Shown: positions 1,564 to 23,206 of the stretch, piece by piece
Layout of the letters: each line of letters starts with the position of its first letter
How positions within the stretch are numbered: the stretch's first letter is position 1
Assembly (NCBI RefSeq): GCF_025151215.1
Contig: NZ_CP102286.1
Location: forward strand, 4,030,001-4,094,000
DNA length: 64,000 nt
DNA from: Parabacteroides merdae ATCC 43184
GTDB taxonomy: Bacteria; Bacteroidota; Bacteroidia; Bacteroidales; Tannerellaceae
Reading direction: 5' to 3'
Translations under genes and position numbers: made by a program
Notes under the pieces: generated by a model
The model's input: the letters and a program-made list of their open reading frames with translations, nothing else
The model's database searches: none
What the model was told of the DNA's origin: nothing

Positions 1564-3198
1564 TTAGGGCAGTAATTCTTCCAATTTGATTTGTTGAAAG
1601 ACCATATCGGCTTGACTGCTTTCATATAAAATACCGATTGTGTTTTCATTTACAGAGGTTATGCAGGAATAGCCGCGTCCGTTATATTCATCCAATAGGA
1701 TTTTCTTGTTTTCAGGCCAGGTCTTTCCATCGTCATAGCTAATCTTCAGTGTGATATGATTACGCTCCGAATAGGATTCCGGGTTGACGAAAAGCAGGAT
1801 TGATTTATTTTGTCCGTCTTTGTGATAAGTGTGTTTGTGTATGCTACCCATACAAGTCGGTTCGATTAATGCTTTTCGTGAGGTGGGATGTTCTGTCCAA
1901 GTTTTCCCTAAGTCAGAGGTGATGCAGACACGCCGTCCGTTCTCCTCTTTGTTTCCCCGGTTACGGTTGTCACGCATATTTAGCATGATGTTTCCGTCGG
2001 ATAGTTGTACGGCCATACATTCTGTTACATTTGTAAAAGCCGGATTGCTGGCGCTCCAGGTTTTACCACCGTCTTTGCTCCAAGTGATATTGGAAAATGG
2101 GTGTCCGTCTTTATCTCGTCCTTGTGTCGGAAAAACGAGAGTTCCGTCTTGTAGTGTAATCCCATGTCCCGGTGCAGGGGCATATAGCCACCATTCCTTT
2201 CGTTTGGTTTGTTCCGTTATGTTTACAGGGGGATTCCAGGTTTGACCGTCATCGGTACTTTTTGCAATTAGGAACTGACTGGTCTCTTTTACTCCAAACC
2301 CAGGCTGAGAGCCTTTTTCACGCCATTGGTGTATCCAGCGGGTACTGTCTTTTGTCATTCCAGACACCCATTCCCCTGTTTTTCCATCTAATACTCCATG
2401 CATCCAAAGGCCGGCTACATAAATATCCCCTGTGTTTTCATCTACCAGGATGTTGGCATCACTGACTCCATTGTATTTTTCAGGTAATCCTCCCCAATCT
2501 TTCATGTCCAGGACTACTTGCATAGGTTGCCAGGTTTGCCCTCCGTCTGTACTGCGATTCAGACAAATATCCATATGCCCTTGTAAATCGCGTGGACTTT
2601 CGTAGCGGGCGTCATAGATTGCTAACAATGTTCCTTTTGTAGATGTTGCTAACCCTGGGATACGAGACGTGTGAACGCCGTCTTGCTTGTGCTGGCGTAC
2701 GGCCACTCCTGCACGAAGTTCAGATGAAGCTGTTACAGGCACTTTTATCTCTCCTTCATTTGTCTCTATCTTAGTACAGCTTGCTTTAAAGCGATGGCTG
2801 AGATCGACTTTGTCTTTTAACTTAAAGGATACCCAAAAAGGGAAGGTGTCCGTATCAATTGAAATATCTGTATTGAAAACAACTTTTTCAGATGCGGATA
2901 CTGTTTGGAGAACCGGCTTGTTGGTATCGATCATTCCTTTGGAATCGGTATGATAAAGACCGACACTTTCAATATCGTCGATATCTGTTGTGCCATGAAG
3001 GTCCACTTCTAATTTTTGTAATGAATAATTATCGCCAGTTTGATGTCTTATCAGTTCAATTTTGAAGACAGGGTTGGCTTCCTTCATGGTAAGAATGGGA
3101 AGTACCGGATGTTCTGCTGTCATGGATATGTTGTCTGTATAGTTCGTACAGGAGAATGACAGACCTGAAAGGATTGTAAATAATAATGCTCTATTCAT
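1564..3198 (-). CDS. nanH: Exo-alpha-sialidase (GH33) lipoprotein NanH
   Basis: A 544-residue sialidase that removes terminal sialic acid from host glycans. The N-terminus is a lipoprotein signal with Cys17 (LSFSC), implying an outer-membrane or surface anchor. Residues about 40-165 form the sialidase N-terminal beta domain; the propeller follows. I count five Asp-boxes, starting at 216, 314, 374, 427 and 487. The arginine triad fits R179 (SRIPG), R409 (NMR) and R479, with Glu446 in IEPTC and Tyr510 in GYSCI as the likely nucleophile pair. Size and layout match Bacteroides NanH. It is the last gene of the nan operon, 6 bp after the sulfatase gene, and ends at the terminator 1513-1557. Confidence 0.95.
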   Translation of the reverse strand: MNRALLFTILSGLSFSCTNYTDNISMTAEHPVLPILTMKEANPVFKIELIRHQTGDNYSLQKLEVDLHGTTDIDDIESVGLYHTDSKGMIDTNKPVLQTVSASEKVVFNTDISIDTDTFPFWVSFKLKDKVDLSHRFKASCTKIETNEGEIKVPVTASSELRAGVAVRQHKQDGVHTSRIPGLATSTKGTLLAIYDARYESPRDLQGHMDICLNRSTDGGQTWQPMQVVLDMKDWGGLPEKYNGVSDANILVDENTGDIYVAGLWMHGVLDGKTGEWVSGMTKDSTRWIHQWREKGSQPGFGVKETSQFLIAKSTDDGQTWNPPVNITEQTKRKEWWLYAPAPGHGITLQDGTLVFPTQGRDKDGHPFSNITWSKDGGKTWSASNPAFTNVTECMAVQLSDGNIMLNMRDNRNRGNKEENGRRVCITSDLGKTWTEHPTSRKALIEPTCMGSIHKHTYHKDGQNKSILLFVNPESYSERNHITLKISYDDGKTWPENKKILLDEYNGRGYSCITSVNENTIGILYESSQADMVFQQIKLEELLP

Positions 3199-3204
3199 GG
3201 AATT

Positions 3205-4641
3205 TTATTTATTATGAGTGTTTTTATACTCTTCAATCATTTGCTGTAGTTCATTTTCAATGTCAACATATTCTCTTTTTCCGCTTAGATTTTCTTTTTC
3301 TGCTTTATTGCCGTTCATGCAATAAAGTTCTCGGTCTGTAATATGATTTGTCGCATTGTCGTACCATAGCGTGTAACGCCAGTTTTTAGTCCGGACAGTG
3401 TATCCCATGTGTGTCTGGTTTTTATAAGAATTTACCGCTTTATAGGGCCTTGGGAATTGGCTGAAAGCACGATTCTTCCAGTTAACTTTATTCTCTATCA
3501 GAAAACGAAGGGATTGCCCGGATAATGTATGTGCAGGTTTTAGTCCGCAGAAATCGGTCAATGTCGGATAGATGTCAATCAACTCTACAATATCGTTTAT
3601 TCTTTTCGGGGCATCTTTATATTCTGGGCTGTATATAAGTAGAGGAACTTTGCAATCCAATTCAAAATTTGTGGATTTCCCCCATAGGTGCTGTTCTCCG
3701 AGATGGAAGCCGTTGTCACCCCAAATGACAATGATTGTATTTTTCTCCAATCCCAGTTCTTTGAGCTTACCCAATAATTTCCCGACTTGTGAGTCGATAA
3801 AACTGACACATGCATAATAAGCTTTACAAAGTTCTTCCTGCTTTTCTATTGAAAGGTTTCCGTGTTTGGGTATGTCGGTATATCCTCTCAACTCTTCCCA
3901 ATTGTGGAAGGAAATAACAGGAGCGTGTATTGGCTGTTTATCTTCTGCCTCTTTTCGGATGAAGGATTTATTCCGGTATATATCCCAGTATTTTTTCGGC
4001 ATACTAAATGGCAGGTGAGGTTTGATATACCCGACTGCCAAAAAGAAAGGCTGCTTGGATTTGGATAATTTATCCAATCTCTTTAGAGCTTCTGCGGTAA
4101 CTTTGCCATCCAGAAAAGAAGTGTCCGGTTGATCGGCAATTTCAATTGTTGCCGCTTTATTCCCTTGTCTGTTTTGCATCAACGTATATTCTTCTTTCTT
4201 AATAGATAAGTTGTATATGGGGGGGCGGGTCCAGGAAATCGTATCTTGTGTCCGGGTACTGCCATGATAGATTTTACCGATACCGATAGTTTCATATCCG
4301 TTATTTTTAAAAAGTTGCGGCAGAGTGGTAATATACGGACATTTTTCTCTGAAATGGGTGTTTAGATCGGTAACTCCGATTTCATCCGGACGCAATCCTG
4401 TCAGTAGGGATGCCCGTGAAGGGCCACTGACGGATTGCTGGCAGTATGTGTTTTCAAAGAGGAAACTTTTAGTCGCAAATGTATCGATATTGGGAGTTAC
4501 GGCGTATGGATCACCGTAACATCCCAATGTCGGGCGCAAGTCATCTATGGCTATGAAAAGCACGTTTCTAACATCATTTTCTGCTTGTATGCAAAAAGGT
4601 AATAATGCCCCAATGGCTGTCAAAGTAGTCTTTTGTTTCAT
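3205..4641 (-). CDS. Sulfatase, serine-type, iduronate-2-sulfatase-like (S1 family)
   Basis: A 478-residue arylsulfatase-fold enzyme. The activation motif is S72-G-P-S-R with LLTG downstream, so the catalytic formylglycine would be made from serine. That needs an anaerobic radical-SAM maturase (anSME), which is not in this window. Metal-site residues are seen at D33-D34 (AIDD) and in WGDNGFHLGE. The QQSVSGPSR stretch resembles iduronate-2-sulfatase-like enzymes. A 20-residue signal peptide (cleavage near IQA/E) predicts export. It lies between two sialidase genes in one operon, so I infer it removes sulfate from mucin or other sialylated glycans that would otherwise block glycosidases. The substrate cannot be read from sequence. 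Confidence 0.9.
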   Translation of the reverse strand: MKQKTTLTAIGALLPFCIQAENDVRNVLFIAIDDLRPTLGCYGDPYAVTPNIDTFATKSFLFENTYCQQSVSGPSRASLLTGLRPDEIGVTDLNTHFREKCPYITTLPQLFKNNGYETIGIGKIYHGSTRTQDTISWTRPPIYNLSIKKEEYTLMQNRQGNKAATIEIADQPDTSFLDGKVTAEALKRLDKLSKSKQPFFLAVGYIKPHLPFSMPKKYWDIYRNKSFIRKEAEDKQPIHAPVISFHNWEELRGYTDIPKHGNLSIEKQEELCKAYYACVSFIDSQVGKLLGKLKELGLEKNTIIVIWGDNGFHLGEQHLWGKSTNFELDCKVPLLIYSPEYKDAPKRINDIVELIDIYPTLTDFCGLKPAHTLSGQSLRFLIENKVNWKNRAFSQFPRPYKAVNSYKNQTHMGYTVRTKNWRYTLWYDNATNHITDRELYCMNGNKAEKENLSGKREYVDIENELQQMIEEYKNTHNK

Positions 4642-4693: not shown

Positions 4694-5821
4694 TTATTTT
4701 TTTAGTTGTTCGAATGGTATTATTATAAAGCCGATTTTTTCATACGGATTGTTTATGCCATATTCATATAACAGTCCGATATTCCCGTTTCTCAGATTGG
4801 TCAGGTCTGAATAAGCGCTTGGACCTGAATAGACTTGATAGGCATAGGGCCAGGTTTTACCATTATTTTCACTCAGTTTGATTGTCATCTTTTCTCTTTT
4901 ATCCGTGGAGGCTGGATTGGAGAATAAAATGTTGTTGCTGATCTTTCCCTTTTTCATATAATTTAGCGTGCTCCCTTGACAAATAGGCTCGATCAGTTCA
5001 GGAAGATATGACATTTGAGAGACAGTTTCTCCACCATCTTTACTGATTGCATACGAACGGGTTTTACTTTCTTCCCGGTTGTAATTACGCATGTTTAGCA
5101 TTAAGTATCCATTTTTTAATTCCACAACACTACTTTCATTTCCTCCATGTTCGTTGACAATTCCTCCTAGTTTCCAAGTCTCGCCTTTATCATCGGAATA
5201 AATCAGTTGGGAATGATAAGTCTTTGTCCCTGCCACCATATGGTTGGCGGCAACTACTAACCGTCCTTTATTCTTTTTACCTTGTAATTGGATCCCATGA
5301 CAGGGGCCTGTTGCGTACCAAGTCCAATCAGGGTGTTTGACAGATGATGTGATTTCTTTGGGGGTAGACCAACTTTTGCCATCGTTATCGGAATAAAGAA
5401 CATATACTCTCCGACTGTCTTTACTTGTTTTATCGATGATTTGTTTTTCGTGATCCTCTCCTAAATTCCAACAACTGACCAAGATGATACGACCTGTTTC
5501 TTGGTCTACGATAGGAGACGGGTTGCCACATACATTATCACCATCGTCCCATACTGTAATGATGCGGCTCCAAGTCTTACCTCCGTCTTCGGAACGTTTC
5601 ACTACTAAATCAATATTACCGGTATCGGAACAACTGTTTTTTCGCGCTTCAGCAAAGGCAAGCAGGGTTCCCGCTTTGCTTTTGACGATAGCAGGAATAC
5701 GGAAGCAAGCATATCCGTCCTGACTTTTTAGGTAAATGTCTGTTGTTGTATTTGTTTGTGCATGGACTAAAATCCCCAATTGCATCAAAACGAAAAAGCA
5801 TGTTACTATTATATTCTTCAT
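4694..5821 (-). CDS. Second sialidase (GH33), secreted, single-domain
   Basis: A 375-residue propeller sialidase with a standard signal peptide (cleavage after VHA at residue 21). It lacks the extra N-terminal domain of NanH. The arginine triad fits R41 (FRIP), R245 (NMRN) and R309; the Glu278 (LIEPIC) and Tyr337 (SAYSD) pair is present. Asp-boxes start at 77, 144, 209, 260 and 317; the fourth ends in V instead of W and is degenerate. It shares the FRIP fold with NanH but differs strongly in sequence, so it probably has a different linkage preference or location (soluble periplasmic rather than lipid-anchored). It is 21 bp downstream of the lyase-like gene and part of the nan operon. Confidence 0.93.
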   Translation of the reverse strand: MKNIIVTCFFVLMQLGILVHAQTNTTTDIYLKSQDGYACFRIPAIVKSKAGTLLAFAEARKNSCSDTGNIDLVVKRSEDGGKTWSRIITVWDDGDNVCGNPSPIVDQETGRIILVSCWNLGEDHEKQIIDKTSKDSRRVYVLYSDNDGKSWSTPKEITSSVKHPDWTWYATGPCHGIQLQGKKNKGRLVVAANHMVAGTKTYHSQLIYSDDKGETWKLGGIVNEHGGNESSVVELKNGYLMLNMRNYNREESKTRSYAISKDGGETVSQMSYLPELIEPICQGSTLNYMKKGKISNNILFSNPASTDKREKMTIKLSENNGKTWPYAYQVYSGPSAYSDLTNLRNGNIGLLYEYGINNPYEKIGFIIIPFEQLKK

Positions 5822-5842: not shown

Positions 5843-6781
5843 TTATTGATTGAAAAATTCCGGAATGATACGATAGCCTTCTTCTCTTACTTTAATAACG
5901 TATTCTTCCGGTATCGAACGATAAGGCCATCTCAAATGACTACCTATATCAGCCCATTTTCCTACTAATGCCATGAAGCGATCACAGGCATGGTTTGGAA
6001 AATGTTCTTTTACGATAAAAGGAGTTATCAGTTTATCCATAAACAGATGAATACGCTCTTCCAATTCGAGTGCCATATCCTTATTTGCTGTTATTTGCTC
6101 ATACCATTTTTGAGCAGCAAAAGGATTCAGGCAAGCTATATTGGAATACGCTCCGTGAGCTCCGGAGAGTATGCCGCTTGCCAGATTATGGCCTGGAATA
6201 AAAACGGATAATCCTTGTACCTTTTCTCTGATTTGTTTATACCATTCGGGATTCCGGTTTCCGTCAAAAACTTTGATGCCGATCAAAGATGGTATATGTT
6301 GTTTTAGGTACATCCAATCATGGGGAGAAAGTATCTTTTTTGCATGAGGAGGATTGTAAAGGACGATAGGAATTCCGTTTGCCGCTTCTTCCATCCTTTG
6401 CAAAAAAATGACAGCCTCTTCCAATGTGACCGGAAACCAGTCTGGTAAGATTACTTGGACTGCGCCAGGATTTAGAGACTTGACAGCTTGTAATCGATTT
6501 AGAGATATTTGCGGGCTCATGTGGCTGACACCGATTTGAAAGGGAATACTGGCAGCAGAACATTTCTCTGCCAATAATTCGCTTGTTTTTATAAATTCTT
6601 CTTCATTTTGAGTATAAAACTCTCCTGCTGTCCCATTCGAATAGATTCCGCAGGGAGATGATGCTATCAAGATATCTATTTCATCTCCCATGCGTTTATA
6701 ATCTATTTCTCCGTTTTTATTTGTTGCCAGCAAAAGTGTTGCCCAGTTGCCGACAAGAGTTGTATGTGTTAACGGATGCAT
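5843..6781 (-). CDS. DHDPS/N-acetylneuraminate lyase family protein, divergent
   Basis: A 312-residue class I aldolase of the DapA/NanA superfamily. I place the start at the ATG at 6781, 9 bp after the susD stop; an upstream TTG would add only three residues. Visible signatures are GTAGE at residues 50-54 (GTTGE in the nearby nanA), the catalytic tyrosine Y142 in VLYNPP and the Schiff-base lysine K170 in IGIKVFDG. It is clearly not a recent copy of the other lyase at 11531-12442. Being inside the sialic-acid operon, it may cleave a modified sialic acid or a related keto acid, but the true substrate is unknown; a dihydrodipicolinate synthase role is less likely from context. Confidence 0.85.
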   Translation of the reverse strand: MHPLTHTTLVGNWATLLLATNKNGEIDYKRMGDEIDILIASSPCGIYSNGTAGEFYTQNEEEFIKTSELLAEKCSAASIPFQIGVSHMSPQISLNRLQAVKSLNPGAVQVILPDWFPVTLEEAVIFLQRMEEAANGIPIVLYNPPHAKKILSPHDWMYLKQHIPSLIGIKVFDGNRNPEWYKQIREKVQGLSVFIPGHNLASGILSGAHGAYSNIACLNPFAAQKWYEQITANKDMALELEERIHLFMDKLITPFIVKEHFPNHACDRFMALVGKWADIGSHLRWPYRSIPEEYVIKVREEGYRIIPEFFNQ

Positions 6782-6790
6782 AAGTATCAA

Positions 6791-8245
6791 TTATTCATCA
6801 TATCCCGGAGTTTGTATGATATTCGGGTTCTTATTAATTGACGTTTGAGCTACGGGCCATAATAAAATATTTAACTCGTTTTCACGTCCAATCAAATAAG
6901 GGGCCTTTTTGAATACAACTCCTAAACGGATGAAATCCCACCATAATTTGCCTTCGGCAGCGAATTCTTTCATTCTTTCTGTTACAATGGCTTCATTCAA
7001 GTCATTGGCAGCCATGGAAGATGGATAGAAATTCTTTTTACTGTATGCCCGTTCAGCAATTTTGTTAAGTGAAGCAATCGCACCGGGCAAATCATTTTTT
7101 GCTAATTTGATTTCTGCATCAAATAGGATGGCGTCAGCATAACGGTATACGATTATATCTGAATCAAAGATACGTGTTCCGTTTGTCCATGTTCCGGCAA
7201 ATTTATTGATCCATTGAAATGTTGCATTTTTCGGTTCGTCGAAATAAGTTTCGAAACTTACAATTGTTCTTTGATCTTCTTTATTTTCAGAAAGTAAAGC
7301 TTTGTAATCTTCTGTATAGAAGCACCATTGTTGATGGCTACCTACTTTTACCGGATTTTCTATTGCTTCGACAGAAACATATTGAGAAGGAACCAGATAA
7401 TCTCCAGGATATCCACCTGTATATTCATCTTGAATGTAACTCCACGCAAATATAATCTCGTTACCTAATTCGTTGTAAAAAATGTTGCCGAAATCTTCTT
7501 CAAGCGAGTAATTTGAGTTGTTCAAAACAGCTTGGACAGCAGTGTTTGCATTGTCGAGTGCCACCTCTCCTGCGTTTCGTACTTTATACATCCATAAAGA
7601 GTAGTCTGCTTTCAACATATTAATGGCTCCCAATGATGCCAGATTCCTGTCTGCTACAGATGTAGGCATCAAAGTTAAAGCATTGTCGATGTCTTCGCCT
7701 ACCTGTTTGAATACATCTTCGGCTGGTTGACGCGTCGGAAAAAGTCCTTCTTGCTGATCCGATTCAAAGCCGTCCAGCAATATGGGAGCATCTCCCCAAA
7801 TACGCCCAATCCAATAGTAGCAAAATGCTCTTACATAATATGCGTTTGCTAAAATCTTATTTTTAGCATCTTCACTATTGAACGCAATATCCGGTGTGTA
7901 TTTTAAAATCAAATTAGCATTGTTGATTGTTGTATATAAATCAGCCCAATTTGCATAACCGTGGTTTGTTGGTATCTGATTTTGATATACTTGGTCACGT
8001 GCTGTTTGTCCGGCTAAACCGTCTGCCCAAAGACCGGTTCTATATTCTCCCCAGTAAATGTAACCAGTGCTGAATGTAGCTCTGAATTTATTAAACATAC
8101 CATACATGGCAGAAGTTGCATCTCCTTCATCTTGCCACATGGAGTTGGCTGATACTTCACTTTTCTGGATGATATTCAGATCACCATGGCATGAAGCAAG
8201 TAGAGTTCCAGCCAATAATATTACTAATATTGTTTTGATTTTCAT
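6791..8245 (-). CDS. SusD/RagB family glycan-binding lipoprotein (NanU-like)
   Basis: A 484-residue SusD-family protein with a lipoprotein signal (LLASC near residue 19), so the mature protein sits on the outer-membrane surface. SusD proteins form a lid over the SusC channel and bind the ligand. The tetratricopeptide-like N-terminal half (NKILANAYYVRAFCYYW) and the C-terminal RagB segment ending in TPGYDE are typical. It is 36 bp downstream of the SusC gene. By context its ligand should be free sialic acid or a sialylated glycan, as for NanU of Bacteroides and Tannerella; that part is inference. Confidence 0.93.
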   Translation of the reverse strand: MKIKTILVILLAGTLLASCHGDLNIIQKSEVSANSMWQDEGDATSAMYGMFNKFRATFSTGYIYWGEYRTGLWADGLAGQTARDQVYQNQIPTNHGYANWADLYTTINNANLILKYTPDIAFNSEDAKNKILANAYYVRAFCYYWIGRIWGDAPILLDGFESDQQEGLFPTRQPAEDVFKQVGEDIDNALTLMPTSVADRNLASLGAINMLKADYSLWMYKVRNAGEVALDNANTAVQAVLNNSNYSLEEDFGNIFYNELGNEIIFAWSYIQDEYTGGYPGDYLVPSQYVSVEAIENPVKVGSHQQWCFYTEDYKALLSENKEDQRTIVSFETYFDEPKNATFQWINKFAGTWTNGTRIFDSDIIVYRYADAILFDAEIKLAKNDLPGAIASLNKIAERAYSKKNFYPSSMAANDLNEAIVTERMKEFAAEGKLWWDFIRLGVVFKKAPYLIGRENELNILLWPVAQTSINKNPNIIQTPGYDE

Positions 8246-8281: not shown

Positions 8282-11200
8282 TTAGAAAGTAACTTTTACT
8301 CCTACGGAATATTTACGGATAGGAGGATAATTGTAATAATCCTTATTATAGGTCGTAGAAGCACCCACTTCAGGAGAGACACCCTTTACAGCTGTAAAGT
8401 AATGCAGATTGTTTCCTGCTAATGTAATAGCCAAATTTTGAATACCCAGTTTTGTCAACTTATTTGTTGGAACATTGTATTGTAGACTTATTTCACGGAT
8501 GCAGAGGTAATCACCTTTGTAGTTGAATACATTCGATGTACGGCTAAAATTAGCATTTCCATCATCCGGATCATTGGCTGTAAAACGTGCGTATTTTGTA
8601 TTGTCGCCCGGCTGTTTCCAACATTGTTTCACTTCATCAATCAGTGTATAATTGTTTGCAAATGTATTCATGAAATAACGCATTTCTGAATTGTTATTGA
8701 TGGAGTGGCCTAAAGCCCAATCAACAAAGATATTCAAAGTGAAATTTTTATAGGTGAAATTGTTGTTCAAACCTCCGGTTGAATGTGGAACTGTATAACC
8801 AAGCAAGAATTGATCTTGACTGTCAATATAATCTTTTCCGTCTTTTGTTTGGCTACCTTCACGGTTTTTCCATTCGTAATCACCGATTTCTTTACGTCCG
8901 GCTATATTTTTTCCATCGGAAGGCCGATAACCTTTTGCGGAACTATCATACATCGCATTGTCTGCTTGTTCTTGTGTTTCGATAATATGGTCAACTACAT
9001 AACCATAATAACGATATAACGGTTCCCCCTCTGCTGTTCCCCCGAAGGCTGTCCCATCTGCCAAAGTAATACCTCCTATACGATTTTTGTCTCGTCCGTT
9101 GTCAGGGAGTTTTAAAACTTTATTTTTTACATAACTCCATGTAAATTTGGATGTCCATATGAAATCTTTTGTTTCGATGTTTGTGGAACTGATTTCGATA
9201 TCGAAACCATAGAATTTTACTTTACCAATGTTAGTTTGAACATTGTCAAAGCCAGAAGTATTTGGTAATTCTTTGCTAAATAATAGGTTGTCAGTTCTTT
9301 TGTCGAAATAGTCTGCGCTGATGTTTAAGCGATTGTTAAACATTGATAGATCGAAACCTGCATCTAACTGTGTAGAGACCTCCCATGTTAATCCTAAATT
9401 AGGCATAGTAGACGGGATAATTCCTGCAACTCCATCGTATTTGGCATTTGTTGAATATTTGCCATAAGCGTCATATAGCCCGATTGCATTGTTTCCTGTT
9501 TGTCCATAGCTTATACGCCATTTCAAGTTATCAATGGGTTTTATATTTTGCATAAAGGATTCGTCAGACATAACCCAGCCCACGGAAGCACCAGGGAAAA
9601 AACCCCATTGATTTCCAGTCGCAAAACGGGAAGATGCATCTTCTCTAAATGTGGCAGAAAACAAATATTTCTTTTGGAAATCATAGGATAATCGGCCGAA
9701 ATAACCAATTGTGACATCCTCTGTGAAATCACTTTTTGCGTCTTTTTTATTGGGACCTGCTGTTAATGTCGGAACTTTGTCGGAACTGGCACCTGTAACA
9801 GTTGCTTCCATTGATTGATTTTTATCTTTCTGATAGGAGTAACCAGCCATAACAGAGAAAGAATGATCTTTGATTGTCTTGTTATATGTTCCATAGGCTT
9901 CCAATTTATTTCTGTTTAATTCACCGAATTGCGCAGTGGTTGTACGTAAACCACTGAATTCGTTGGCTTTTTCGAAACTGTCACTTCTCCAATGATGATT
10001 ATATGTAGACATTTGCACATCTGCTTTCAGACCTTCAATAATGTGGTATGTTAGTCTTCCAAATGCAGACATTCGTTTTTCCTCTTTGCTTTGGTCATTG
10101 TAATATTGATACCATAATGGGTTAGGAGATGTTGCATTATAGCCTTTTGTGGGTGTTCCGTCTTCATTATATTTCTTTTGAGTCGGTGGAGTTGCTAGAC
10201 CTCTTGATATAACATTCATCTGGTTAGGATATTCAGATGAATTGGTTTTAGAATAATCAAAACCCATTGCAAAAGACAATTTGCTATTAATTTTTACATC
10301 CAGATTATTCCGCATGCTTAAACGGGAATAGCCTGTAGCTAAAGCGACTCCCCCGTCATCTGTGTATCCTGCACTAGCACTGTATCTGACAGATTCACTT
10401 CCTCCATCAATTCCTACATAATAGTTTTGCCATAGTGCGTTTTTGTAGATTTCGTCTTGAAAGTTGTTATCCTGGAAAATCAGTGTTTTAGTTGGATCTA
10501 ATGGATCTGGCATGGATTTGTATCCAGTTGGTATGCTTTCCCCTTCTTTGAGGTAGCGAGTTGAATAGATTGAAGATTCTGTATTTCCTGAACTTGCAGA
10601 ATAACCATCCATAAAGTTGTAGTGAGATTTGGGACCTAAGGCTACAGCTGGACGAACAGTATTGATATAATCTTCGGCATTCATGAAATTATACAATGTT
10701 TCTGCTTGTTGTAATGCCAAATTAGCCTCGAATGTTATTCGGGGAGCTTGATTGGCTGATCCTTTTTTTGTAGTGATAAGAATTACACCATTAGAAGCTC
10801 TTGAACCATAGATTGCAGTGGATGCCGCATCTTTTAAAACTTCAATAGATTCAATGTCATTTGGGTTAATACCCGAGAATGCACGTTCTACGCCATCAAC
10901 TAAGATCAGAGGGTCGTTGCTTTTATTGATAGAAGAACCACCACGAATGCGGATTGTAGCATCAGCCCCAGGTGTGTTGTTATTGGAGTATAGGCGTGCA
11001 CCGGCAATTTTTCCTTTTAAACCTTCACCAATAGTATTTACTGGAACATTTTTTAATGCATCACCACTTACTTTTGTAATAGCAGAGGTGATTGTTCTTC
11101 TTGATTGTGTACCATAACCGACAACAACTACTTCATCCAAACCTATAGTAGAGGCGTTTAGTGTAATGTTTAAAATGTTTTCGTTTCCTACTTTTACCTC

Positions 11201-11446
11201 TTTTGTCGTATATCCGATAAAAGAGAAAAGAAGAGTTGCCCCTTTTTGTACATTGAGGTTGTATTTACCGTCAATATCGGTAATAGTACCTGTTGTTGTT
11301 CCCTTGACAGAAACAGAAACACCTGGCATAGTTAGTCCATCGTTGTCTATAACAACGCCCGAAATATTCATTTCTTGAGCAGAAATTGAAATAAAAGGGA
11401 ATAATAAGAGGACTAACAGTAAACATAAATGATTTAATTTGTTCAT
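8282..11446 (-). CDS. SusC/RagA family TonB-linked outer-membrane transporter (NanO-like)
   Basis: A 1054-residue TonB-dependent transporter. In order: signal peptide (cleaved after ISA, about residue 23), a carboxypeptidase-regulatory-like domain (about 27-105), the SusC signature DEVVVVGYGTQ, the plug domain (IRIRGG, ILVDGVERA, IEVLKDAASTAIYGSRASNGVI) and a large beta barrel ending in VGVKVTF with a terminal phenylalanine. It would import the ligand caught by the partner SusD, driven by TonB-ExbBD. Gene order and context match the sialic-acid transporter NanO. A hairpin-rich 84-bp gap separates it from nanA upstream, so it may have separate control of expression. Confidence 0.95.
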   Translation of the reverse strand: MNKLNHLCLLLVLLLFPFISISAQEMNISGVVIDNDGLTMPGVSVSVKGTTTGTITDIDGKYNLNVQKGATLLFSFIGYTTKEVKVGNENILNITLNASTIGLDEVVVVGYGTQSRRTITSAITKVSGDALKNVPVNTIGEGLKGKIAGARLYSNNNTPGADATIRIRGGSSINKSNDPLILVDGVERAFSGINPNDIESIEVLKDAASTAIYGSRASNGVILITTKKGSANQAPRITFEANLALQQAETLYNFMNAEDYINTVRPAVALGPKSHYNFMDGYSASSGNTESSIYSTRYLKEGESIPTGYKSMPDPLDPTKTLIFQDNNFQDEIYKNALWQNYYVGIDGGSESVRYSASAGYTDDGGVALATGYSRLSMRNNLDVKINSKLSFAMGFDYSKTNSSEYPNQMNVISRGLATPPTQKKYNEDGTPTKGYNATSPNPLWYQYYNDQSKEEKRMSAFGRLTYHIIEGLKADVQMSTYNHHWRSDSFEKANEFSGLRTTTAQFGELNRNKLEAYGTYNKTIKDHSFSVMAGYSYQKDKNQSMEATVTGASSDKVPTLTAGPNKKDAKSDFTEDVTIGYFGRLSYDFQKKYLFSATFREDASSRFATGNQWGFFPGASVGWVMSDESFMQNIKPIDNLKWRISYGQTGNNAIGLYDAYGKYSTNAKYDGVAGIIPSTMPNLGLTWEVSTQLDAGFDLSMFNNRLNISADYFDKRTDNLLFSKELPNTSGFDNVQTNIGKVKFYGFDIEISSTNIETKDFIWTSKFTWSYVKNKVLKLPDNGRDKNRIGGITLADGTAFGGTAEGEPLYRYYGYVVDHIIETQEQADNAMYDSSAKGYRPSDGKNIAGRKEIGDYEWKNREGSQTKDGKDYIDSQDQFLLGYTVPHSTGGLNNNFTYKNFTLNIFVDWALGHSINNNSEMRYFMNTFANNYTLIDEVKQCWKQPGDNTKYARFTANDPDDGNANFSRTSNVFNYKGDYLCIREISLQYNVPTNKLTKLGIQNLAITLAGNNLHYFTAVKGVSPEVGASTTYNKDYYNYPPIRKYSVGVKVTF

Positions 11447-11530: not shown

Positions 11531-12442
11531 TTATTTAGATAAGAAACCGATTTTTATTAAATCGTTTTTCAGCATATCATATTCTTCCTTGCTTACAGCT
11601 GGAATGGGTAGTCTGCATGGGCCGCACTCTATTCCGATCAAATTCATAATTGCTTTACCTCCTCGTACACCTCCTCCGTATTTAATGATTATTTTTACTA
11701 TTTCTATTGATTTCATTTGTAATTTTCTCGCATGTTGGAAGTCCCCTTCTTCAACTGCTTTCAAAATACCGTGGTAGACTTCGGGAAGATAGTTATAGGT
11801 GCTTCCAACGCCGGCAACTGCTCCGAATGCTAATCCTGAGATTAGAATTTCATCATACCCGTGAAGTACTTCAAATTCACCGTTATTTAATGTTAAACAT
11901 TCACCCATTTCCATGAGATTATTGTGTGTAAATTTTGTTCCCACTAAATTAGGCATCACTTTTTTACCCTCTGTCAGAAAGGTCGCAACAGGTAAAAATA
12001 CACCAGTCATAGATGGCATATTGTAATAATAGAATGGTAGTTCTTCTGCACTGTTGGCAATCGGAGTAAAAAAGTCAATTAAATCTTTGACAGTTTCCGG
12101 CTTGAAGAAACAAGGTGCCATTGCGGCAATAGCATCGGCTCCTGTCTCTGCCGCATGGCGTGCTAATTCGATTGCTTCTACTTGTGAATTACTGCCTACA
12201 TGGACTATTACTTTAAATCGTCCATTGGATGATTTAACCCATTGCTCTAGAATATTTTTTCGTTCATTAGTTGTTAGGGATTGCGACTCTCCGGTCGTAC
12301 CGCACACGAACACTCCTGTCATATCAGATTTAGCCATCAGATCTGCATACTTATCGATTACGGAAAGATTAATCTTTCCTTGGGCATCCATAGGAGTGAA
12401 AGATGCCGCAATTAGCCCTTTTAAACGTTGATAGTTTTTCAT
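11531..12442 (-). CDS. nanA: N-acetylneuraminate lyase
   Basis: A 303-residue class I aldolase expected to split N-acetylneuraminate into N-acetylmannosamine and pyruvate in the cytoplasm. The family motif GTTGES is at 48-53, the catalytic tyrosine Y140 is in YYNMPSMTG and the Schiff-base lysine K170 is in VGTKFTHNN. A glycine-rich segment (KYGGGVRGGKAIMNLIG) near the C-terminus also fits sialic-acid lyases. It lies 4 bp after the symporter-fusion gene and before susC, as expected for a catabolic nan operon. The next pathway enzymes (ManNAc-to-GlcNAc epimerase and a kinase) are not encoded nearby. Confidence 0.93.
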   Translation of the reverse strand: MKNYQRLKGLIAASFTPMDAQGKINLSVIDKYADLMAKSDMTGVFVCGTTGESQSLTTNERKNILEQWVKSSNGRFKVIVHVGSNSQVEAIELARHAAETGADAIAAMAPCFFKPETVKDLIDFFTPIANSAEELPFYYYNMPSMTGVFLPVATFLTEGKKVMPNLVGTKFTHNNLMEMGECLTLNNGEFEVLHGYDEILISGLAFGAVAGVGSTYNYLPEVYHGILKAVEEGDFQHARKLQMKSIEIVKIIIKYGGGVRGGKAIMNLIGIECGPCRLPIPAVSKEEYDMLKNDLIKIGFLSK

Positions 12443-12446
12443 GTTT

Positions 12447-15038
12447 TTATTTTTTAGAGAATATTTTATATATTGTTAAATGATCTATGTTTTTAGTCTT
12501 GCCGGGAATAATCCAACTTGCTATATACCCAATAACGAAGCATGAGACAAATCCAGTAGTTGTATATAGTAAGAGATGTACGGATTGCTGTTGGATGACG
12601 ATCAGTTGTATAAATATACTACCGATAATGCCGCATAATGCTCCTGCAGTATTTGCTTTTCGTGTGATCATTCCTAATAGGAAGAGTCCACCAAGGCTAC
12701 CTAAAATGATACCTAAAATTTTATTGAATTCATCCCATAATGATTTTATTTCCCAAGTTGCCATCATATAAGCAAAAGCTATTCCTGCAATACCTAAGAA
12801 AAGAGTTGCTATTTTTGCTGTGCGTAAGTTGTCTTTTGCTTCTTTTTTAATTATTTTGCCGTGAATATCAACAATGTAGGCGGTGGCGGCCGAATTCATA
12901 CTGCTACTGAGGGTAGACATGGCTGCTGCAAATATCCCTGAAATTAAAAGTCCTGTGACTCCTTGGGGGAGTTGAGAATAAATGTACCAAGGGAGAATTG
13001 CATCTCCGTCTGTGATTGTCAAACTTAAATCTGTTGGATTATGTTTATAGTAAACATATAATACTGTGCCTACGAAAAAGAAAAGAAGTGTCGCGGGAAT
13101 AGTAAGAATTGCATTTGTCAGTACACTTTTCTGTGCTTGTTTTTCTGTTTCGGTAGTCATATAGCGTTGTACCATTGTCTGGTCTGTACCATAAGTTGTT
13201 AAATTGGTAAAGAAAGTCGCAATTAGTACAGTCCATAATGTTGATTGCCTCAAGTCGAAATTTAAACTTCCCAAGTCGAATTTATTGTCAACTGATGCTT
13301 CTCGGATAATACCTGAGACCCCATCAGGGATATTGCATGCGGCCATGATAACAACCAGGATGGCACCACCTAATAGAATAACGACTTGTAAAGCATCTGT
13401 CCACACTACAGCTTCAATACCTCCCATCATGGTATAGATAAGACTTAATATTCCCATCAGCCCTATGCAGAGAAATATATCGAAGCCTGTAACAACATTT
13501 AATGCTATAGCTGGTAAGAATAAGACAATTCCCATACGACCAACCTGAAATAGGATGAAAGCTATACTGCAAAGTACCCGAATTAAAGAACTGAATCGTT
13601 GTTCTAAATATTCGTATGCTGTTGTAACATTCAGTTTGCGATAGAATGGAATAAACAAATATAATATGAATGGAACAACCATTAAGATACCTGCATTTAC
13701 AAGCATGTAGCTCCAATCGGAAGAATAAGCTTTTGCGGGAATGGACATGAATGTGATAGCACTCAGACTCGTTCCGAAAATACTTAGTCCAACAGCCCAC
13801 CAAGGGAGTCGTCCTCCTCCTTTGAAATAGTCGTCTGTATTTTTTTGCTTCTTCGAAAAATAGTAGCCAATCCAACCAAGAGATACAAAATATAAAATGA
13901 TAACAATTGTATTGACTATACCCAGTTTTTTTTCGAATGGGATGATTTCCCCTTTTAGGACATGAGGTGTACGAATACCAGGCTTGACTTCACCACTCCC
14001 TACATAAAATGTATTGCCTTTTTGGGCAATATTGGTTGTAACGGAAATAGGATAAGGAGCAACTTCTTTCTTTATCAAACTTTGGGTGATAGTATGGTAA
14101 AGACGAATTGTATTGTCAAAACCTGGATGATCATCGGATCCTGGAATTAATTGTGGTACACCCCCTAAAAAAAGAATATGGTTTGCACCACAAGATAATG
14201 CATTGCCAGCCATGACTGGAAAGCTTTGTTTCAGTTTCTTCCATGAATTTAAACGTGGGTTGAAGGCATAGCCATCTGTAAGTGTATTTATGTATCCGTC
14301 AGCTTTATAGTTACGCCCACTAAAAAGATAAAAGCATTTATCAAAACCGTCACTTTGAGTTGTACTCACTGCATATCCTCGAGGTTCTCCTGGCCATGAT
14401 GGTAATTCTTTCCAACCTTTATTGCGGCTGTTGAGATCTAGAACAAAAAAATAATTGGTAGCTTCGGGCTTTTCCATGCTTTTCTGACCTCCGGCCACAT
14501 ATATTTTATCTCCAAGCAAAGAGGCTGTCGCATTTGCTAAAGGAACAGGTAAGGAAGGCCACTCTGTGTCAATTTTTATTTGTCCGTCAATTAGTTGAAT
14601 TTGGAAAACATCATTATAGCATTGGATGGAATCGCAACCTCCAATACATAATATACCTGTATGCAATTCTATAGAATTGCCGTATGCCAAGGCTTTTGGC
14701 ATACTTTCTGGTAATACTAACCATTTGGAGGCTGGCTGGATTGTGTTTATACAATATATTGTATTCTGATAAGTCTTATTTCCTCCATTCCAAGGTGTGG
14801 CATAAGGAAAATTTGCGCCTCCTGCAATAATTAGGTGGTTGTCTATAAAACCTGAAAAAGCTCCCGCAACTCCGATATTCGGCTTGCCGTCTAAATCAGG
14901 TAGAGTAAGAGAATTATCCCATTTGATTTTTTCCAATCTAGGATTAGTTGAAGGGATACTTTCTTTTAATGCTGCGGCTTGAAATAAATTCAATAAACAA
15001 GCCAGAAAAATTGTTCCTATTTTGACTGTATTAGACAT
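12447..15038 (-). CDS. Kelch beta-propeller (NanM-like mutarotase) fused to sodium:solute symporter
   Basis: A single 863-residue protein with two modules. Residues 1-24 look like a signal peptide; about 35-365 form Kelch-type propeller repeats (IIAGGANFPYATPW, LCIGGCDS, IYVAGGQKS, YLFSGRNY, ILFLGGVP) resembling N-acetylneuraminate mutarotase NanM/YjhT; from about 373 on there is a complete SSS-family symporter with many membrane helices and the GGIEAVVWTDALQ signature. SSS transporters have an outside N-terminus, so the propeller would sit in the periplasm at the mouth of the transporter. I infer it converts alpha- to beta-sialic acid and passes it to sodium-coupled uptake. It directly follows the regulator (20-bp gap) and precedes nanA. 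Confidence 0.93.
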   Translation of the reverse strand: MSNTVKIGTIFLACLLNLFQAAALKESIPSTNPRLEKIKWDNSLTLPDLDGKPNIGVAGAFSGFIDNHLIIAGGANFPYATPWNGGNKTYQNTIYCINTIQPASKWLVLPESMPKALAYGNSIELHTGILCIGGCDSIQCYNDVFQIQLIDGQIKIDTEWPSLPVPLANATASLLGDKIYVAGGQKSMEKPEATNYFFVLDLNSRNKGWKELPSWPGEPRGYAVSTTQSDGFDKCFYLFSGRNYKADGYINTLTDGYAFNPRLNSWKKLKQSFPVMAGNALSCGANHILFLGGVPQLIPGSDDHPGFDNTIRLYHTITQSLIKKEVAPYPISVTTNIAQKGNTFYVGSGEVKPGIRTPHVLKGEIIPFEKKLGIVNTIVIILYFVSLGWIGYYFSKKQKNTDDYFKGGGRLPWWAVGLSIFGTSLSAITFMSIPAKAYSSDWSYMLVNAGILMVVPFILYLFIPFYRKLNVTTAYEYLEQRFSSLIRVLCSIAFILFQVGRMGIVLFLPAIALNVVTGFDIFLCIGLMGILSLIYTMMGGIEAVVWTDALQVVILLGGAILVVIMAACNIPDGVSGIIREASVDNKFDLGSLNFDLRQSTLWTVLIATFFTNLTTYGTDQTMVQRYMTTETEKQAQKSVLTNAILTIPATLLFFFVGTVLYVYYKHNPTDLSLTITDGDAILPWYIYSQLPQGVTGLLISGIFAAAMSTLSSSMNSAATAYIVDIHGKIIKKEAKDNLRTAKIATLFLGIAGIAFAYMMATWEIKSLWDEFNKILGIILGSLGGLFLLGMITRKANTAGALCGIIGSIFIQLIVIQQQSVHLLLYTTTGFVSCFVIGYIASWIIPGKTKNIDHLTIYKIFSKK

Positions 15039-15058: not shown

Positions 15059-15772
15059 TCATTTTCTACTGTTTAGAAATCTTTTATATACTTCAAAGTG
15101 TTGTTCTATTGCTTTTCGATACCCAAGCTCATTTCTGTTTTTGAGAAAATTAAGCAGATCTACGTGGGTAACTATCTGCCCTTGCTCTTTCATTTCTATA
15201 TTGATAGGTTCTAATAAATCCTTGAATTTGTTTTTTACAAAAATCATTACGGGATGAATGATATCTTGGAATTCGGAAATAGTTTTATTTCCTGTGATTT
15301 CGTATAATTTAGCATGGAATGTAAATTCGCTGACAGGGGCATATTCATTATTTTCAAAGACAATTCCCATTTTTACAATTTCTTCCAGTTCTGAAATGTC
15401 TTCCGGAGTAATATTTCTGAAAATATCGCTACATATCCCTATTTCCAAAGCAATTCTGAATCCTAAAATATCGAAAAGAGCCTCTTCGCCTAAAATACGT
15501 GGATCGACAACTCGTTTCATTCCTCCAAGAATCGTTGGTTCTGTTAGGATCATCCCCCGACGCGTACGAGTTTCTATCATCCCCATCATCTTTAACCGAC
15601 TTAAAGCCTCTCGAAGTACACTGCGAGCTACCCCCAGTGCTGCTGCCAATTCCAATTCATTAGGAATAGAATCTCCTGTACGTATATCTTTTTCTTTTAA
15701 ATAATTGAGAAGTTTATCCTCTACTTGATCAACAAGTGTGATTGTCTGACTATGTACTTTTAATGTATCCAT
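15059..15772 (-). CDS. FadR-subfamily GntR transcriptional regulator
   Basis: A 237-residue DNA-binding protein. Residues about 11-80 are the GntR winged helix-turn-helix (IPNELELAAALGVARSVLREALSRLKMMGMIETRTRRG) and about 95-230 the helical FCD effector domain with metal-binding-type histidines (FHAKLYEITGN, THVDLL). It is the first gene of the nan operon and is preceded by a perfect palindrome of FadR-family type, so autoregulated repression of the whole operon, relieved by sialic acid or a breakdown product, is the simplest reading. It is a functional counterpart of NanR; orthology is not claimed. Confidence 0.92.
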   Translation of the reverse strand: MDTLKVHSQTITLVDQVEDKLLNYLKEKDIRTGDSIPNELELAAALGVARSVLREALSRLKMMGMIETRTRRGMILTEPTILGGMKRVVDPRILGEEALFDILGFRIALEIGICSDIFRNITPEDISELEEIVKMGIVFENNEYAPVSEFTFHAKLYEITGNKTISEFQDIIHPVMIFVKNKFKDLLEPINIEMKEQGQIVTHVDLLNFLKNRNELGYRKAIEQHFEVYKRFLNSRK

Positions 15773-18373: not shown

Positions 18374-20737
18374 TTATTCCGTTTTGATTACCTCTGCCGG
18401 GTTCAACCGTGAAATCAGCCAGATACGATAGGCGACGGTTACGAATACGATAGTGGTGGTCAGAAGGAGGATTGCCAGCCACATCAATGGATTGTTTAAC
18501 CAGCCGGGATCAATCGTTATCTTTTCTTGCGTCAATATTCGCAGGAGCATATAGACGATTGCCAGCGCAGGGATGGCTGAAATGGCAAGTAAACGGATAT
18601 ATAGTTTACCGAACAATAGTGCAATGACCTTAGGGCCGGCTCCGTTGATTTTCCGTATGGCGACTTCTTTTTGCCGGCTGACCGTGTCGAGTGTAATGGC
18701 GGAATAGATACCCAGGACTGTAATGACTATGCTGATAACGGACAATAGGCTGAACAGGTCGCTTATCAGCATCTCCCCTCCATTGAGCCGGAATCGCTCC
18801 TCTTGTTTGGTGGTCAGCAGGAAAGGAATGGATGCCGGCAACCAGTTATGTACGATTTTGAGTATTTCTTTCCGTACGTTCTGTTCCTGTCCGGCTATGC
18901 ATTTGATGTAAGCGACCCTATAGTTCGGTTCCTTAGGAACGGAGATGAAGGAGAAACGGTGATATTGAGATTGATTGGCTTTAGCCATTTGATCTTGGGT
19001 ATATACCGGTTCGAACGGTAGTTGCTCATATATGCCGGTAATCTGGAAAGTCTGGTCTCCCAATTGTACGGATGTCGGATTCTTTTCCCCGTCTTTCTCC
19101 AATTCCCAGATAAGCGACCGTGAAACCACTATTTCGTTAGCCGCCTGTGGCATTCTTCCCTCTATCGGCAGTTTCATGAAAGACGGGTAGTTTTTACTGG
19201 TGAGGAAATGTATCCCGTGCAGTGTCTCTCCCTGTTTGTTCTTATAATCCAGATATTTGCCGGGAGTCTCTAAAAGCACGTCTTCAACCCCAGCAAGCGT
19301 ACGGATACGGGAGACGATCTCTTCTTCGTGTCCTTGTACTTGCGGTTCCCAAAGTTCTATCTTCCAGATACGGGTACATTCTTCTTCCGTCAGCGTGTTG
19401 TTCCTTTTTTCTTCTGCGAGGTGGTAAATATTTCTTAGTCCGATAGCTCCGGCAATAAAGAGGAAACAGATGAACAGTTGGACTCCTAACATGAAGTTCC
19501 TTATACTATGTTTCTGTCGTTTCACGCCTTTTATTCCTTCTGTCAATGTGATATGTTTGATGCGGAAGATGACCAATGACACAATCAAGGCGCAGAGAAC
19601 AAACAAGAAACAGAGATACTCCATTTCCTGCTGGATCAAGGTAGGCGTATGGATAAACAGATTCTCGTTGATCGTTTCTTTCGAGGCCATATACTGATAA
19701 TAAACAGGCACTATCCATTCGGTCAGGACGAGACTTGCCAATGCCGACAGGATGAAAAGAACCGCAATCTCGCTGAAGAGTAATCTGAACAATCCTTTTG
19801 CGTCTGAACCTAAGCATTTCCGTAAACTGAGTTCTCGTGTCCGGTTATAGAACGACTGAATGCAGAACTTCAGGAAGTTTATCATCGCGGCAATCAATAT
19901 CAGGAGGCCGATCAACGGGATGAAGAATGTCGCACTGAGATTATCCGGTTTGTACATCTCTTCCTTGAAAGTGCGTGCTGTCAGATAGTGATCGTTGTTT
20001 TTTCCAAAAGCCGGTATTTGTTGGCGTAACCTTTGGTTTATTTCTTTGCTTGAAACACCTTTATCCAGCAGGACCACCAGATCTCGGTATTTACGTTTTG
20101 GTTGGATGCCGGCTGTTTCCAGGAAATAAAAGTCACTCTTTTCCCGTGTCCCATCCGGAAAATCCCTGATAACGGCGCTGATTGTGGAATAGTGGATGGC
20201 AGACGTGTCGCTGTCTGCACGACTGAAATAGAGTGTTTTTCCGATAGAGTTTTCTGCTCCGAATATTTTTTTCGCGGATGATTCGCTGATGAATACTTCT
20301 CCCGGTTTGAGTGTCGGTGTCTGGCCTTCCAACGTTTGAATGCTGAATATGGTCGGAAAATCTTTTGTGACATTCTGGATGCTGCACTGGTACGGGATTT
20401 CTTTCTGGTTCTCTTTGGATATGGAAATATTGGCTTGGCCGTATCCGTATGAATAAGCGATTTGCCCAATTCCGGTGATCGGATTCCCCATCAGTTCTTG
20501 CACCACCTCTCCTGGAATATAAGGGTCCTCATAACCGTATTGGGCCGATTTGACATATATATTCGCCATCCGATCGCTGTTTGCCCAAGCAATAAACTGG
20601 TTGTTGAATCTTCTGATATAATAAGAGGTTATACTGAAACAAAGAAGTCCGACTGCGATTCCGATGATGGAAAGCAAATACTGGATCTTGTTTTTAAGAA
20701 TTTGGCGGATAGCCATTTTCAAGTAGTGTTTGAACAT
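18374..20737 (-). CDS. FtsX/MacB-type ABC transporter permease 4 of 4
   Basis: A 787-residue protein built as two consecutive permease units: a first membrane helix (YLLSIIGIAVGLLCFSI), a periplasmic MacB-type domain, three helices, a second lone helix near 425, a second periplasmic domain and three C-terminal helices. The second unit carries the family motif VSRQKEVAIRKINGAGPKVIALLF, and the protein ends NPAEVIKTE. There is no Walker motif. Permeases of this class do not pump through the membrane; they transmit ATPase motion to periplasmic partners. It is the last gene of the efflux operon, 38 bp after its paralogue. Confidence 0.92.
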   Translation of the reverse strand: MFKHYLKMAIRQILKNKIQYLLSIIGIAVGLLCFSITSYYIRRFNNQFIAWANSDRMANIYVKSAQYGYEDPYIPGEVVQELMGNPITGIGQIAYSYGYGQANISISKENQKEIPYQCSIQNVTKDFPTIFSIQTLEGQTPTLKPGEVFISESSAKKIFGAENSIGKTLYFSRADSDTSAIHYSTISAVIRDFPDGTREKSDFYFLETAGIQPKRKYRDLVVLLDKGVSSKEINQRLRQQIPAFGKNNDHYLTARTFKEEMYKPDNLSATFFIPLIGLLILIAAMINFLKFCIQSFYNRTRELSLRKCLGSDAKGLFRLLFSEIAVLFILSALASLVLTEWIVPVYYQYMASKETINENLFIHTPTLIQQEMEYLCFLFVLCALIVSLVIFRIKHITLTEGIKGVKRQKHSIRNFMLGVQLFICFLFIAGAIGLRNIYHLAEEKRNNTLTEEECTRIWKIELWEPQVQGHEEEIVSRIRTLAGVEDVLLETPGKYLDYKNKQGETLHGIHFLTSKNYPSFMKLPIEGRMPQAANEIVVSRSLIWELEKDGEKNPTSVQLGDQTFQITGIYEQLPFEPVYTQDQMAKANQSQYHRFSFISVPKEPNYRVAYIKCIAGQEQNVRKEILKIVHNWLPASIPFLLTTKQEERFRLNGGEMLISDLFSLLSVISIVITVLGIYSAITLDTVSRQKEVAIRKINGAGPKVIALLFGKLYIRLLAISAIPALAIVYMLLRILTQEKITIDPGWLNNPLMWLAILLLTTTIVFVTVAYRIWLISRLNPAEVIKTE

Positions 20738-20775
20738 GATGTGATGTTTTTGTCGTTATTATGTTTTTGTTTTTA

Positions 20776-23166: not shown

Positions 23167-23206
23167 AATCTGATTGTTTGTTATAAGATATTGTTCAAAG
23201 ACATTC

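Follow-up and report, generated by a model that had tools for sequence, protein, structure and literature searches.

A predicted sialic-acid mutarotase propeller joined to a SiaT-like sodium symporter in Parabacteroides merdae

The fusion gene and its two domains

Here, we have analysed a stretch of 64,000 nucleotides from Parabacteroides merdae ATCC 43184 (contig NZ_CP102286.1, positions 4,030,001 to 4,094,000), referred to below as the window, and in it a gene on the minus strand (12447..15038) that encodes a signal-like helix, a permuted NanM-type propeller and a SiaT-type sodium:solute symporter in a single protein of 863 residues. The frame runs uninterrupted from ATG to stop, and frame 1 of the plus strand over the same interval holds many stops. 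A chance or artefactual frame was ruled out: a relative named Parabacteroides johnsonii (P0001) has equal length and is 93% identical.

The protein begins with a hydrophobic, signal-peptide-like N-terminus (residues 1-23; 14970..15038, minus strand like all parts of this gene), modelled as a helix at residues 2-23 and overlapping a hydrophobic stretch at 4-25. Next comes a Kelch propeller (residues 35-366; 13941..14936) that belongs to the permuted NanM family and carries the motif GEVKPGIRT with E350 and R356 (residues 349-357; 13968..13994), and then the SiaT-type symporter domain (residues 372-855; 12474..13925). The first transporter helix (residues 374-395; 13854..13919) lies 7 residues past the last propeller strand and precedes a positively charged loop. 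Three profiles passed their cut-offs on this protein, namely Pfam NANM (PF24996; 142.2 bits against 45), Pfam SSF (PF00474; 170.6 against 22.8) and NCBIfam TIGR00813 (sss; 259.4 against 184). Modelled in full with AlphaFold (mean predicted local distance difference test score, pLDDT, 84.1; predicted template modelling score, pTM, 0.81), the protein has a helix at 2-23 and propeller strands at 37-366, and its first transporter helix spans 374-395; the propeller modelled alone reaches a pLDDT of 96.5 and a pTM of 0.93. The first-pass annotation of this DNA, made from its letters alone, had drawn a signal peptide, a Kelch propeller at 35-365 and a transporter of the SSS family at 373-855 in one frame. 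Profiles and model place these boundaries correctly within a few residues, and the whole-protein prediction agrees with the domain order that it had proposed.

That the propeller belongs with NanM came from several comparisons. The E. coli NanM motif is GEAKPGLRT, in which Glu and Arg are numbered 209 and 215 when the 19-residue signal is left out of the count. Glu209 and Arg215 are reportedly the catalytic residues of NanM (Severi 2008). E350 and R356 of the fusion align with this pair. When NanM was compared in its native order with a model of the fused propellers, it matched in two pieces (best 72 bits), whereas NanM in rotated order matched as one domain with 131 bits and with the motifs aligned; in a control, 132 of 200 shuffles gave a reported match, with a top score of 7.4. 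A profile of 43 fused propellers searched against the PDB placed NanM first (1.4e-44, 155.7 bits), and the next chain scored 69.9 bits. At columns conserved to at least 93% among the 43 propellers, NanM is identical in 33 of 46 (the count left after five gap-dominated columns were removed by hand), compared with 58 of 261 other aligned columns. The shared conserved identities include Y119, R220, D255, E350, P353 and R356; N76 and F77 of NanM pair with Asn/Tyr or Gly/Phe depending on the aligner, with the total of 33 unchanged. By its sequence, the propeller is a circularly permuted member of the NanM family. Profile, rotated alignment and Glu/Arg pair thus agree with the NanM likeness first proposed for this domain, and the active-site residues whose absence would have spoken against it are present as E350 and R356. 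Compared by fold, the propeller mostly matches Kelch domains of the binding type. That it is itself an ordinary domain of this type is disfavoured, since NanM leads the PDB profile matches far above the other chains.

In the symporter domain, the carboxylate ligands of SiaT (S60, T63 and R135) are kept as S426, T429 and R501. The Na2 and Na3 site positions of SiaT, taken from its structural description (PMC5931594), are 57, 182, 342, 343, 345 and 346, and they are kept as T423, D548, S708, T709, S711 and S712, with Ser343 of SiaT replaced by Thr at T709. Both these positions and the profiles bear out the assignment to SiaT-like SSS transporters, and the domain likely works like SiaT as judged from its residues, though we do not claim it as SiaT itself. 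In SiaT the N-terminus is periplasmic and the bound ligand is beta-Neu5Ac (PMC5931594), in line with the extracytoplasmic N-terminus that the first-pass annotation had assumed for SSS proteins.

Gene neighbourhood, spread and partner exchange

All genes of the cluster lie on the minus strand. A GntR/FCD regulator, whose best named match is NanR (below cut-off; 15059..15772), ends 20 bases before the fusion. After the fusion come a NanA-like lyase (11531..12442; 4 bases downstream, best match N-acetylneuraminate lyase), a SusC-like TonB-dependent receptor (8282..11446), a SusD-like lipoprotein with NanU as its best match (below cut-off; 6791..8245), a second, divergent DHDPS-family aldolase (5843..6790), a sialidase-like BNR protein A (4694..5821), a sulfatase with Sulfatase and SGSH_C domains (3205..4641) and a sialidase-like BNR protein B with BNR_assoc_N (1564..3198). 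No 2-epimerase (NanE) was seen in the gene cluster of the fusion. From these NanA-, NanR-, NanU- and sialidase-like neighbours, with the named matches below cut-offs, the operon looks sialic-acid related, as had been suggested at first sight.

Genes of the sulfatase type occur in 10 of 79 fusion loci described below, and sulfated sialoglycans may be a target. A relative of the second aldolase stands near the fusion in 6 of the 79, among them L117, L118 and L142, which are without a NanA-like gene. Elsewhere in the window (18374-25531), three consecutive minus-strand open reading frames of 774-796 residues resemble ABC-type permeases as read from the sequence.

A second nan locus of the same genome lies outside the window, at about 3395-3407 kb (L020:1439-13061). 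It encodes a ROK protein, a DHDPS-family lyase, an N-acylglucosamine 2-epimerase, an MFS transporter, a sialidase-like protein, a hexosaminidase and a protein of 1078 residues with GDSL, SASA and mutarotase modules. When P. merdae grows on Neu5Ac, an MFS transporter, an AGE epimerase, a sialidase and a permuted mutarotase are induced (PMC12893687).

The same fusion was found in other nan operons, as the first-pass annotation had proposed to look for. Both domains are present, according to a precomputed domain column, in the 120 relatives listed from 2008 matches. At a threshold of 1e-60, 11 of 38 genomes of the genus match: seven with the full fusion, one with a broken copy, two with the propeller on another protein and one with a symporter-like gene only. 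The broken copy (L012, L016 and L019; G021 contig 485) has stops and frame shifts in a draft assembly and is possibly an artefact. In the order, 42 of 392 genomes match at 1e-60, and 14 of the 29 loci fetched (L021-L049) are recognisable fusions. Across the phylum, TIGR03548 has matches in 137 of 392 genomes at a threshold of 0.001, and many of these matches are weak. Of the 29 loci retrieved at this level (L050-L078), 15 carry propeller and symporter and 14 a propeller lacking the symporter.

A further search, of named genomes, gave 367 relatives, from which 79 loci were kept, many of them from draft bins. They are mainly from Bacteroidota, together with Balneolota-type, Planctomycetota, KSB1, Sumerlaeota, Armatimonadota and Verrucomicrobiales records. 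Of the 79, 72 recognisably have the two domains in a single frame, and 66 keep the catalytic Glu and Arg. A NanA-like gene is near the fusion in 67 loci, always on the same strand (67/67) and within 400 bases in 58; SusC-like (39), sialidase-like (36) and NanR-like (34) genes are the other neighbours. These neighbour counts are lower bounds, since the end of a contig truncates many of the loci. In a tree of 164 tips, which includes only one unfused SiaT, the fused proteins stay together, a weakly tested indication that the fusion may have had a single origin. Database names listed for the relatives are mostly 'sodium/solute symporter' or alike; one of those listed, P0246, is named a mutarotase.

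The propeller is also found with other partners. In two genomes of the same genus a sialidase-like domain follows it (L013/L178 and L014/L179), and the propeller-sialidase fusions at hand (L178:138-2804, plus strand; L179:6020-8026, minus strand; P0240, P0244 and P0245) carry sialidase-like domains of two kinds. P0240 (887 residues; its cluster holds 1639 sequences) and the symporter fusion P0061 share 90% identity across residues 1-364, and past residue 364 P0240 is sialidase-like and 60% identical to protein B of the window, which on these sequences looks like a recent exchange of a cassette. Among the 120 propeller relatives listed of 688 matches, 117 have a symporter domain and 3 have sialidase-type domains. 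In P. merdae itself, the GDSL, SASA and mutarotase protein of the second nan locus passes the TIGR03548 cut-off. Since these partners cover the release, trimming and import of sialic acid, they support sialic acid as the substrate of the propeller.

Proposed function of the fusion

Gut sialidases use the retaining chemistry of family GH33, to which the sialidase-like proteins A and B of the window presumably belong from their BNR domains. We argue that the fusion probably combines an active sialic-acid mutarotase in the periplasm with a sodium/sialic-acid symporter that tethers it to the membrane, as its sequence and structural model suggest. In such a pathway, the sialidases of the operon would release alpha-sialic acid, the symporter would import the sugar with sodium and the adjacent NanA-like lyase would begin its breakdown. 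We infer the mutarotase activity, its substrate, the periplasmic side and the benefit of a fixed 1:1 co-production at the membrane.

Several observations weigh against this proposal. TIGR03548, the profile of permuted mutarotases, matches residues 54-296 of the fusion with 169.4 bits, short of its cut-off of 243.2, and the NanA-like lyase likewise falls below its NCBIfam cut-offs. The N-acyl/glycerol pocket of SiaT is altered at F78Y, G81V, Q82N, F243T and Q250T (Y444, V447, N448, T608 and T615 of the fusion), and the changes are family-wide: N448 is found in 67 of 67 proteins, T608 in 57 (Ser in the other 10) and T615 in 65. With this difference, the sialic acid carried may not be exactly that of SiaT. 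The second nan locus of the genome has an MFS transporter and a mutarotase module of its own, and the table of 35 genes (20 up and 15 down, by a fold-change cut-off) in the covered text of the Neu5Ac study contains no sodium symporter, in a strain that may lack the fusion (PMC12893687). Finally, 13 of the 79 loci (L090, L100, L120, L128, L129, L136, L139, L148, L149, L150, L153, L154 and L156) have lost one or both catalytic residues and kept the symporter, and most of their genomes have no clear mutarotase elsewhere.

The decay takes several forms. In L090 the Glu is kept and Arg is replaced by Thr, in L100 both residues are replaced by Asn, and in the other 11 loci the stretch is not alignable. 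The Ser, Thr and Arg of the symporter pocket are kept in 12 of the 13, L090 having Lys for Arg. The N-terminal parts range from near full length down to about 200 residues, or about 180 in abundant clusters, and a lipobox pattern is matched in two (L153 and L156). One relative of 491 residues has only 14 residues before the symporter, where the start may be miscalled, and some other relatives keep Glu with Cys or Ser for R356. Three loci flagged as lost by the motif pattern (L110, L138 and L151) nevertheless keep Glu and Arg. On the tree, catalytic residues were lost in at least three separate places, some of them modestly supported.

The genomes of 45 of the 79 loci (13 decayed and 32 intact; mostly draft bins of unstated completeness) were scanned for further mutarotases. 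A replacement elsewhere in the decayed genomes was not borne out: at 1e-10 no second permuted-mutarotase match was found in 12 of the 13, and G812 has one. With the broader NANM profile, a separate frame exceeds the cut-off in G812 and G817, and G813 and G820 have matches of only about 25 bits. In 25 of the 32 intact genomes, the fusion is the sole permuted-mutarotase match. Since the propeller decays while the transporter stays, conversion seems dispensable in some lineages, and mutarotation looks useful but not essential to the transporter. In E. coli, loss of nanM costs at most 20% of the growth rate (review, PMC3658417), so that the reason for keeping a sialic-acid mutarotase is only modestly explained.

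An account that would agree with an active mutarotase and an active symporter, and would deny any hand-off between them, is that the two were joined only for co-expression and retention at the membrane. We rate it slightly below an even chance. The cassette joins symporter, sialidase and esterase alike, which would fit an enzyme that can move between partners better than a channel shaped for one, and E. coli manages with a free NanM at the small cost given above. Against it stands the junction, where 21-23 residues separate the catalytic Glu from the symporter start in all 65 frames measured, from several phyla, and exactly 22 in 54 of them, the window fusion included. Another 15 frames without the motif pattern, the 13 decayed ones together with L138 and L151 (variant motif, Glu and Arg kept), are outside this count. 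The uniform spacing suits a fixed geometry, but as the stretch includes the propeller's own last strand (359-366) besides the 7-residue linker (367-373), it is suggestive only.

This spacing is the best hint, a suggestive one, of a coupling like the direct feeding into uptake that the first-pass annotation had inferred, in which the propeller would dock over the outer vestibule of the symporter and pass the beta-anomer straight on or gate it. It led us to raise a low estimate of such a hand-off a little, and to lower that of mere co-expression from even; docking remains doubtful in our view. With strand 359-366 between them, the catalytic loop and the membrane anchor may sit at opposite faces of the propeller. 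If docking does occur, uptake of fresh alpha-sialic acid would be coupled to conversion, and a cassette moved to a sialidase would couple conversion to release instead.

It is also conceivable, if unlikely, that the substrate is another sialic acid (glycolyl, acetylated or sulfated) and the locus a specialised second system, which would be compatible with a tethered mutarotase. The family-wide departure of the pocket from SiaT, the sulfatase and second aldolase in the operon, and another nan locus that could cover Neu5Ac would fit such a role; the carboxylate ligands are kept, however, and substitutions alone cannot give specificity. Less probable still is a propeller that binds sialic acid, as a receptor or lectin would, and gathers it close to the symporter while catalysing little or nothing. 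In its favour, N-terminal remnants of about 180 to 380 residues persist where the catalytic pair is lost, and most fold matches are Kelch domains of the binding type. Against it, Glu and Arg show next to no variation in the intact majority, and the best relative by sequence is an enzyme, NanM, which outscores the other chains by a wide margin.

The proposed tethered mutarotase matters in several respects. Its occurrence in bins of several phyla, together with the sialidase and esterase partners, speaks for a benefit of siting anomer conversion where the sugar is released or taken up. The lineages with a decayed propeller are a natural control. The fusion makes the question testable in one protein, and its recognition would sharpen the database labels of these proteins.

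Relation to known systems

No description of a mutarotase-symporter fusion was found in the literature covered, which was mostly open-access and in part of its text, without supplements; the same holds, in that literature, for a propeller-sialidase fusion. In a survey of gut genomes, the SSS transporter NanX was assigned to pathways for Neu5Ac (PMC5583593). The survey may include fusion proteins, so that a prediction of transport for them may already have been made there, and the propeller goes unmentioned in the text covered.

E. coli NanM (YjhT, PDB 2uvk) occurs in the periplasm as a soluble dimer whose propellers have six blades (PMC10017367). It shares with the fusion the Kelch propeller and the GE.KPG.RT motif with its Glu/Arg pair, but it carries an insert of about 26 residues without counterpart in the consensus of fused propellers, and the fused domain is permuted and tethered to a transporter. 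SiaT of Proteus mirabilis (5nv9/5nva) was solved as a protein without such an N-terminal domain, to which the fusion adds an enzyme-like domain of about 330 residues. The TIGR03548 family has the same permutation, with an O-acetylesterase in front or as a standalone protein, whereas the window protein scores below its cut-off. The propeller-sialidase fusions have the same cassette of signal and propeller, followed by a sialidase-like domain in place of the transporter. CbrA and MxtR likewise contain an SSS domain within a larger protein, but there it is N-terminal to signalling domains (PMC7918813), whereas in the fusion the added domain is itself N-terminal and exported. Both domains are of known kinds, and what is new is their combination, its spread, the exchange with sialidases and the decay of the propeller.
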